DNA of 64,000 nt. It comes from Clostridia bacterium. Its GTDB lineage: Bacteria > Bacillota > Clostridia > Christensenellales > Borkfalkiaceae. The position numbers and the translations under genes were made by a program. Shown here in pieces: positions 55,728 through 62,719 of the stretch. Below the pieces are notes generated by a model. It saw nothing but the letters and a program-made list of their open reading frames with translations. It was not told the DNA's origin and did no database searches. The stretch lies in the NCBI GenBank assembly GCA_017887095.1, contig JAGHIT010000094.1, forward strand, positions 1 through 64,000, written 5' to 3'. Position 1 is the first letter of the stretch. Each line of letters starts with the position of its first letter.

Positions 55728-56432
55728 ATGTCAAATGCGATCGAGTTTATTTCTGCCTTTAATATCATTGATTCGCGGATGCGAGCGATTTACCGGGGTA
55801 AGGGAAATCTTCAATTTTCCGATCTTGTACGGCGGTGTGCGGAATTTCAAATGACAATCCGAAAATACGAAGAAGATTTACTTCTGTGTGCACGGCTCCG
55901 GAACGTCATTGTTCACGAGAGCAGAAAGGATCGGATTATTGCGGAACCATGCGATGAACTTACACGTCTTATTTGTCATGTGGCGGAGTTGTTGCAGTCG
56001 CCGCCGCAGCTGTCTTTGCTTAAACCAAAAAAAGTAACTTTTCTTTCTTCAGAGACGGAGCTTGGGCAAGCGATAGAAAAGATTTCAAAGACAAATTATT
56101 CCAATCTGCCCGTCTATGATGGCAAACGATTGATTGGTGTGCTCAATAATCGTCGAATTGTCCGTGTTTTAGGTCAACTACTTGAGCAAGGGGGAACGAT
56201 AGAGGAGTGCTTGAAATTACCTTGCGCCAATGTGCTTCATGAAGACGATATGACGCGGTTTTACCGTATCCTCGGCAGACAAAACACAATTCAGGATGTA
56301 ATTGATGCATTTGAAGAAAATCGAAAGCTGCTTGCAGTTCTTGTAACGGTTTCAGGGAAACCGAATGATGAAATTGTCAATCTTCTTACAAGCGCCGATT
56401 TGCCGATGTTGATTCGCTTTTTAGATGAATAG
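55728..56432 (+). CDS. HEPN-like N-terminal domain + CBS-domain pair protein
   Basis: RLRNVIVHES (RNxxxH) in a helical N-terminus; CBS-type segments NYSNLPVYDGKRLIGVLNNRRI. Confidence 0.65.
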   Translation: MSNAIEFISAFNIIDSRMRAIYRGKGNLQFSDLVRRCAEFQMTIRKYEEDLLLCARLRNVIVHESRKDRIIAEPCDELTRLICHVAELLQSPPQLSLLKPKKVTFLSSETELGQAIEKISKTNYSNLPVYDGKRLIGVLNNRRIVRVLGQLLEQGGTIEECLKLPCANVLHEDDMTRFYRILGRQNTIQDVIDAFEENRKLLAVLVTVSGKPNDEIVNLLTSADLPMLIRFLDE

Positions 56433-60975: not shown

Positions 60976-61726
60976 AACAAAAGTAAGAGGCGTATCTCGC
61001 GATACGCCTCTATTTTCGTGGTGTTTCCATCGTTATAGTCCGTTATTCCGAAAAGTTCTCATTCTCGGGTCTACTTACACTTTTCAGCCGAAAATCCTTT
61101 CGTTCTTGTTGGCTGAACCCCTGACCTTTGATAAGAAAATTTCTTTCCCTTTGGCGAACCATTTTCTCTTTGATCGATCTTGATAGGGGGTCATCTTCGC
61201 TGCCATTCCTCTCAGAAAATCTTTCTCTGTTCAGGATTCACATTTCTTTCAAATGCTTATCTCTGCTCCAGATTTATTTTCCTTGATTCCTTCAGCCTTC
61301 GGATATGTCTCAGTTATGTAATCTGATTTTTGATCTTACCGTTTCAGATGCTTTGGATTTTCCTACTTCGGTTTGATCTTTCGTCATTTTACTTACTTGA
61401 GATGATCCTTTCAGATCTTAAAGAGATGGATGGAATCCCACGCAACGAGTGAGCTACCGTTCAGCTGCGATCCCTTTTGGTTTCCGTACGCAAAACTTTG
61501 TGTCTGCGGGTGGATTGCATTTCCTTTGATAAGGTATTCAAAAGCTCTCTTTTTATTTCTTGTGTTCCTTCTTCCTTTCCTTGATTCCTTCCTGTATCCG
61601 ATTTGCTTGAAAATCGTCCCGCAGAGAATACATTTGGTTTCTTGTTCAGTTCAAAGAATACAAGTTTTATTGAGATTCCTTTTGCGTTCCTTCTCTTTGG
61701 ATTGCTTTTGGCTTCTCCCTTGTTGT
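60976..61726 (-). ncRNA. Candidate large structured noncoding RNA, class unknown
   Basis: Minus-strand promoter TTGACA-16-TATAAT (61733-61760), no convincing ORF, multiple local hairpins (61599-61616, 61241-61255, 61134-61167, 61083-61117), 3' hairpin 60986-61011 followed by T-rich sequence on the minus strand. Confidence 0.6.
60986..61011 (-). terminator. Terminator hairpin of the candidate ncRNA
   Basis: 10-bp stem agaggcgtat/atacgcctct followed on the minus strand by ttacttttgttg. Confidence 0.6.
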
Positions 61727-61732
61727 GCCTTT

Positions 61733-61760
61733 ATTATAACACGGATTTTTCAGTTGTCAA
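61733..61760 (-). promoter_or_regulatory. Sigma-A promoter of the candidate ncRNA
   Basis: Minus strand TTGACA-ACTGAAAAATCCGTGT-TATAAT. Confidence 0.7.
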
Positions 61761-61841: not shown

Positions 61842-62582
61842 TCAGAAGGGCTTTGCGTTATAGCTTTCCAAATAGCGGTTGATGCGCGGGAAATCTGAAG
61901 GAGTGATGATACTGATTGCTTTTTCTCCGAATACGCCGTTTTCCGTAACGATAACCGCAAGGAGATTTTTCTTTTCCTCAAAGGCAACAAACACCTCAAA
62001 GACGGTCGCATCCTGGCTCATGATGACGTAGCGTTCTAAAACCGATTCATGCAGAATGTCGCGTACGGGCGTCCCTGTAAAAAAGTGATTGATATCGTCT
62101 CCTGACTTGACGCGTGCCTCGATCTCCGCATAAAGTCCATATGAGTTGATCACGCCGACCATCGTCCCGTGGTCATATACGACAAGAGATTTCTGCCATT
62201 TTTCGCGGAAGGCTTCTACCGCAGTTAGGATGGGCCTGTCGGCAAAGACGGATGCAACTGGCTTGATTTTGATTGCATCTATGAGGCGGGGCGGGCGACA
62301 AATCAATGCTTCGATAAATTCGATCATCTGTACAACATCGTCGCATGGTACTGCTATAACTGTCTCATCTGTGGAGCCGGCAGAACGGTGTACGATCGCG
62401 TTACGGAGTTTTCCATAGTCGATCAGTTCCGCTGCATATCGTCGTACCGTGATATCGACGTCGCTGCATTTTTTGACGAGATCAGTGAAGTTCATCGCTG
62501 CCTTTACGCCATGAATAAGTTTAAGCTGCGCCTCGATGCGGTTATAACTGTGCAAAAACCGCGAGGCATTGGATATATCCAT
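61842..62582 (-). CDS. HEPN-like N-terminal domain + CBS-domain pair protein (paralog of 55728..56432)
   Basis: KLRNAIVHRS (RNxxxH); FTDLVKKCSDVDITVRRYAAELIDYGKLRN parallels FSDLVRRCAEFQMTIRKYEEDLLLCARLRN of the paralog. Confidence 0.65.
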   Translation of the reverse strand: MDISNASRFLHSYNRIEAQLKLIHGVKAAMNFTDLVKKCSDVDITVRRYAAELIDYGKLRNAIVHRSAGSTDETVIAVPCDDVVQMIEFIEALICRPPRLIDAIKIKPVASVFADRPILTAVEAFREKWQKSLVVYDHGTMVGVINSYGLYAEIEARVKSGDDINHFFTGTPVRDILHESVLERYVIMSQDATVFEVFVAFEEKKNLLAVIVTENGVFGEKAISIITPSDFPRINRYLESYNAKPF

Positions 62583-62719
62583 AGTCACCTCCTGAAAAAA
62601 GTATACCATATGTTTCTTGTTTTGACAAGAGGGTTCGGCTTTTTTCGACATCCACTGACACCTTGTCGCACGAATCGCGTCCGGGCAGCTGCTACAATAA
62701 CTGGCACGGAGCAGAGAGA

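Follow-up and report, generated by a model that had tools for sequence, protein, structure and literature searches.

Evidence for a large structured noncoding RNA family in Borkfalkiaceae, encoded beside a CBS-domain gene and carrying switching palindromes

Introduction

A MAG of the Candidatus Gallimonas/Borkfalkia type (Christensenellales) carries, on the minus strand downstream of a CBS-domain gene, what is very likely a real structured RNA gene of family-wide occurrence. It was found in the window, by which we mean the whole stretch of 64,000 nucleotides that was analysed, and its homologues make up an RNA family in dozens of species with a clear promoter, a clear terminator and a covarying core. 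Bacteria are known to have only a few families of large structured RNA, most of them without an established function. The protein genetically linked to this RNA offers a concrete experimental entry point, and the switching of palindromes in one exposed segment makes self-assembly of the RNA directly testable by single-site mutations. Our main reading is that of a new RNA family which is homo-oligomeric and works with the CBS protein. We give it a probability of roughly 0.5; oligomerisation, partnership and function are all inferred.

An RNA gene with its own promoter and terminator

The RNA lies in a gap of about 1.06 kb between the end of an MBL ORF (60779, plus strand) and the end of the CBS ORF (61842, minus strand). 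A preliminary description of the region, made without any search, had claimed that the gap holds no credible ORF, and that its minus strand has TTGACA-16-TATAAT, some 750 nt of purine-rich sequence and a terminator hairpin of 10 bp. Most of this held. The longest sense ORF inside the RNA has 40 aa, not longer than in shuffled sequence, and no conserved ORF was found across the homologues, in which ORF positions are not common. The promoter TTGACA-N16-TATAAT (61733..61760, minus strand) matches the consensus at 12 of 12 positions. It is of the extended -10 sigma-A kind, with TG preceding the -10 box and an AT-rich tract upstream to about 61800, and it begins 81 bp past the end of the CBS gene on the same strand. 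Only 1.7 promoter sites, of any quality, would be expected in shuffled sequence. Among 57 homologues, TTGACA is found in 56, TATAAT in 48, and the 16-nt spacer in 54.

With a start estimated 6-8 nt past TATAAT, the RNA spans 60977..61726 (minus strand), about 745-750 nt, and has a purine fraction of 0.634. It ends in an intrinsic terminator (60976..61011, minus strand), whose hairpin AGAGGCGUAUC-GCGA-GAUACGCCUCU at 61011-60986 is followed by the U-rich tail TACTTTTGTT; the terminator claimed earlier is thus confirmed, but its stem has 11 bp. The letters of this stem differ among homologues while the pairing is retained. Past the terminator sits the convergent MBL gene. The minus-strand fold has an MFE of -193.1 (z = -5.8 against shuffles), and none of 20 shuffles was as stable. 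Because the gene downstream differs among homologue loci, the RNA is not the leader of a fixed downstream gene. The sequence shows a promoter and a terminator of its own, from which autonomous transcription is inferred without transcript data.

Distribution of the RNA

Which organisms carry this RNA? A blast search against the 61 genomes of the genus found homologues that occupy the same place, after the CBS gene; 16 of the 61 genomes carry the RNA. In a second search, GTDB genomes were scanned with an alignment of the CBS protein; the 71 named loci that came out bear the labels Candidatus Gallimonas, Ca. Borkfalkia, Ca. Protoclostridium and other Clostridia MAGs, many of them from chicken; from the MAG names we take their family to be Borkfalkiaceae. 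R1, a covariance model built on the 3' core with the window's own row included, matches 63 of these 71 CBS-bearing loci plus the window, and in most loci both the promoter and its distance are the same. R1 also matches three genomes in one other family of the order. Beyond the order it had no match in about 790 genomes of the class and phylum, where the stricter filters lose weak matches. The window RNA is absent from 50,697 phage and 72,556 plasmid records, and the core pattern was not found in viral contigs. As far as searched, the family is thus confined to Borkfalkiaceae and one neighbouring family of Christensenellales. The length of the RNA ranges from 571 to 920 nt among homologues (745 nt in the window). 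The core is present in a single copy per genome except in G037, where a second copy was seen at G037:C9:5461-5580 (E 2.5e-11). The preliminary proposal of a large structured noncoding RNA is supported by these homologues, in which promoter, RNA and terminator recur.

Some matches were rejected. One order-level match (L119, E 8e-4) sits among ordinary protein genes, and the blast matches that many genomes gave to the initial ~90 nt reflect promoter similarity only.

Some of these 5' matches lead to a second RNA-like element. This unrelated conserved element lies at L002:1501-2180 and, in the window's own genome, at G000:C77 from about 10444; it is also present in L018, L019, L028, L029, L030, L031 and L032. 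It is about 430-670 nt long; its promoter is of the same kind, and it has a conserved hairpin, a terminator and two tiny ORFs with strong ribosome-binding sites (MRIFQGLKIK and MYHDMIGAEK in L018). It is about 61-75% identical between most species and has no Rfam hit. Another element, shared by L026 and L027, extends about 340 nt after a similar promoter and is 68% identical over 343 nt.

Secondary structure and covariation

The conserved 3' core (61032..61169, minus strand) forms one long interrupted hairpin. Its helices, all on the minus strand, are GUUCG/CGGAC (61159-61155 / 61042-61038), whose pairing is conserved, GGAAAG/CUUUUC (61148-61143 / 61055-61050), GGUC/GACC (61126-61123 / 61071-61068) and UUCAGCC/GGCUGAA (61117-61111 / 61089-61083). 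On the window core R1 scores 88.7 bits (E 3.5e-16), with the window's row being part of the model.

Do the two partners of a pair change together? In a first core alignment of 46 sequences and 33 pairs, 26 of the 33 pairs changed on both sides. Double changes filled 201 cells, compared with 65 when shuffled, and 87.2% of cells were paired, compared with 76% when shuffled and at most 55% when the partners were slid. A second alignment, a model-based realignment of 65 matches, gave 88.6% paired cells, 29 of 33 pairs changed on both sides, and 336 double changes against 106 shuffled, while sliding the partners by one column reduced pairing to 48-56%. The figures of the first alignment are the fairer ones, because the realignment was fitted to the model. 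Under a tree-based null for the whole RNA, the seven top pairs are all standard pairs and lie in the terminator or the core helices; four pairs reach E<=0.05, all in real helices, and the highest-scoring ones come from the terminator stem. The full-length test is limited because the whole-length MAFFT alignment is too loose in the middle, the long middle region of the RNA being variable among homologues.

Near the 5' end, the helix P2 (GUAU 61631-61628 / AUAC 61597-61594, minus strand) encloses a 5' bulge and the hairpin P3 (CGAUUU 61616-61611 / AAAUCG 61604-61599, minus strand), together 61594..61631. A similar P2-bulge-P3 layout is seen in most homologues when they are folded with the bulge segment A, described below, held open, and the letters of both stems differ between homologues with pairing maintained. 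A covarying secondary structure that supports an RNA gene is thus shown by the sequences.

Four stems had been read by eye in the preliminary description. Two of them held, with compensatory changes among homologues: CGAUUU-ucaagc-AAAUCG (61616-61599), which is P3, and UUCAGCC...GGCUGAA, which is the last core helix above. CAUUU-gaaag-AAAUG (61255-61241) is present in the sequence but lies within the variable region, and AGAAAAU...AUUUUCU around GG-UUCG-CC failed, as it conflicts with the core helix GUUCG/CGGAC. Three of the checks proposed at that time have also been run, and none refuted the proposal: the comparison with Rfam gave no meaningful match, the homologues show strong covariation, and there is no conserved ORF.

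Palindrome switching in segment A

The bulge between P2 and P3 exposes segment A (CUGCGGG, 61618..61624, minus strand). Its partner, segment B (CCCGCAG, 61504..61510, minus strand), precedes a hairpin whose CGUACG loop is conserved. In the window the two are Watson-Crick complementary at 7 of 7 positions. They are perfectly complementary within nearly every RNA of the genus, where five covarying versions occur (CUGCGGG/CCCGCAG, CUGUGGG/CCCACAG, CUGUAGG/CCUACAG, CUGCAGG/CCUGCAG and CUGUGGA/UCCACAG). The complementarity spans 7-9 bp across these versions and includes one G-U in L046.

The window's own clade lacks a palindrome in segment A. In most other clades the segment is palindromic, being CUGCAG, CUCGAG, CCUAGG, CUGUACAG or CUGCGCAG. 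The RNA tree requires at least five switches from one palindrome to another: CUGCAG changed to CUCGAG twice (in L067, and separately in L063/L065) and to CCUAGG once (L056), and CUGUACAG and CUGCGCAG replaced one another, in one direction or the other, at least twice. In these four species, L056, L063, L065 and L067, B remains CUGCAG, so that the A-B pairing is broken while the self-complementarity of A is intact. In several CUGUACAG species A lacks a good partner within the molecule; in the CUGCAG species A matches B as well. It should be noticed that the palindromes were located by patterns written after seeing them, and that these patterns have no match in 5 of 58 RNAs (L068, L070, L074, L082 and L104).

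In a cryo-EM study of OLE, ROOL and GOLLD, palindrome switching at adjacent positions was taken to support intermolecular kissing loops (PMC12286853). Homo-oligomerisation is inferred here because the palindromes switch, which is the same argument as for OLE and GOLLD (PMC12286853). We lean towards self-association of the RNA, with the caution that it is inferred from sequence and has no biochemical data behind it.

Linkage with the CBS-domain protein

The gene directly upstream of the RNA on the same strand, CBS-1 (61842..62651, minus strand), encodes a CBS-domain protein (PF00571). The RNA core was found in 19 of 151 family genomes, and a close CBS homologue (E<1e-90) in the same 19; the core is in none of the 132 genomes without that homologue. 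Within the genus the two sets are identical as well (16 of 16 genomes, and 0 of 45 among the rest). The promoter of the RNA typically lies about 40-260 bp past the CBS stop codon. The two lie apart in G182, G101 and G149. In G182 some 5.4 kb separate them, and an ABC-transporter gene directly precedes the RNA; G101 and G149 have them on different contigs. All three genomes have kept an intact RNA promoter. Separation is thus known from three genomes only, in two of them merely as different contigs, and it is possible that the co-occurrence reflects one locus inherited or lost as a unit. A distant CBS paralogue (55728-56429, plus strand), about 5 kb from the RNA, is present also in genomes without the RNA and is not linked to it.

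The structure model of the CBS protein has a pLDDT of 81; for the fold of the CBS pair, the nearest neighbours are CBS proteins that bind AMP or ADP, AcuB-like ones among them. Control of the protein by nucleotides is inferred from this fold, without nucleotide-binding data. The N-terminal helical part (about residues 24-125; 62277-62582, minus strand) has no match in Pfam, NCBIfam or solved sequences. The structural neighbours of the CBS pair include one chain from a ribosome complex (PDB 9zng). A working partnership between the RNA and the protein is an inference that could fall either way, with no RNA-protein binding data.

Proposed mechanism and alternative explanations

How might such an RNA work? 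In the scenario we propose, the RNA would be made constitutively at a high level (an inference, as only the strength of the promoter is visible) and would fold into a stable body with segment A exposed in the bulge, where A may pair with another copy of the RNA. For most of the other clades we picture a symmetric kissing contact made by the palindrome, and for the window's clade an A-B contact, either in cis or swapped between copies. Together with the CBS protein, the homo-oligomer may then form or join a ribonucleoprotein; through the CBS pair of that protein, the level of adenine nucleotides would control assembly or activity. A bolder reading, which is no more than possible, is a new class of RNA, unrelated to OLE, ROOL and GOLLD, whose copies assemble into homo-oligomers by a palindromic bulge and, with a CBS protein dedicated to them, make up a ribonucleoprotein that responds to adenine nucleotides. 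If true, it would couple RNA quaternary structure to energy sensing.

The alternative that survives best is a monomeric large RNA, in which A and B form a long-range helix within one molecule and the palindromes are incidental. In its favour are the perfect A/B complementarity in nearly every RNA of the window's genus, the match of A to B also in CUGCAG species, and the example of raiA, which shows that large RNAs can be monomers (PMC12286853). Against it, four species switched A to CUCGAG or CCUAGG with B still CUGCAG and self-complementarity kept, and several CUGUACAG species lack a good intramolecular partner. We regard the monomer as the weaker side of an undecided case.

It is unlikely that the RNA serves the CBS gene in cis, either as a long 3' UTR or as a 3'-derived sRNA acting on CBS expression, rather than being an independent gene. 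Such an explanation would fit its position, since in almost all cases the RNA follows CBS on the same strand and its promoter lies at the short distance given above, and it would fit the shared phyletic distribution. However, nearly all homologues have a consensus promoter of their own, and RNA and promoter persist where ABC-transporter genes or a transposase-like gene stand in the place of CBS. It is very unlikely that we see a divergent form of an RNA already known (ROOL, GOLLD, OLE, raiA, RNase P, 6S or tmRNA): size and stand-alone layout do resemble OLE and ROOL, but the best Rfam match has E 3.1, RNase P and 6S-like loci are elsewhere in the genome, ARAGORN finds no tmRNA, and there is no phage, plasmid or viral-contig match. 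A decayed protein gene or intergenic remnant, for which one could cite MAG sequence of medium completeness, is all but excluded by the length variation of 571-920 nt, the unshared ORF positions, the covarying helices and the conserved promoter.

Comparison with known RNA families

Is the RNA of the preferred reading, a homo-oligomer working with the CBS protein, a member of any known family? At lax thresholds Rfam gave no meaningful match for the window or 25 homologue loci, the best for the region being that at E 3.1. Chance hits (Ocean-V, IMES-1, STnc320 and similar) were sub-threshold, belong to unrelated families and were rejected. For the same window and 25 loci, the OLE model RF01071 had no hit at any reported E-value, and neither ROOL (RF03087) nor GOLLD (RF02032) matched. 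RNase P (RF00010) is not at this locus, the genome's RNase P RNA being at G000:C73; nor is 6S (RF00013), with a 6S-like locus at G000:C38 (45.4 bits, slightly below Rfam's threshold of 46.4); nor is tmRNA, ARAGORN seeing only two tRNAs in the window. It is very likely that the RNA is absent from Rfam, including OLE, ROOL, GOLLD, raiA and HEARO. As a large structured RNA it is apparently undescribed. In the literature searched, no paper joins Borkfalkia and noncoding RNA; a fragment of the RNA may sit in a human-microbiome catalogue of candidate structured RNAs (PMC8040213).

The raiA motif RNA, or ModT, is also structured and comes from Bacillota (PMC11706538). It differs in that it was resolved as a monomer (PMC12286853), and the present RNA has no Rfam hit. 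The HIV-type dimerisation signal is a short loop palindrome varying only between palindromes. Here, in contrast, the palindrome lies in a bulge and belongs to a noncoding RNA of a bacterial chromosome, and dimerisation is unproven. ROOL and GOLLD, typically found in phages or prophages, are large and ornate RNAs that stand alone; their linker is variable or disordered, and kissing loops join their chains (PMC12286853). Our RNA shares the large ornate stand-alone layout and a variable region, but it has no match to them in sequence or structure and none to phages or plasmids, and it adjoins a chromosomal gene in one bacterial order.

OLE RNA has about 600 nt. It is likewise large, structured and of anaerobic Bacillota, and it shows palindrome switching in the kissing loop of an RNA dimer (PMC12286853). 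In our RNA the switching occurs in a different structural context, there is no covariance-model similarity, the constant neighbour is the CBS protein, and the promoter is strong and its own. The resemblance to OLE, GOLLD and ROOL that the preliminary description had noted does not extend to membership by any of the membership features tested. It was right in kind: the RNA is large, stand-alone, structured and possibly self-associating, and with more than about 400 nt, a stand-alone gene and a structure supported by covariation it meets the informal criteria for a large ornate noncoding RNA.
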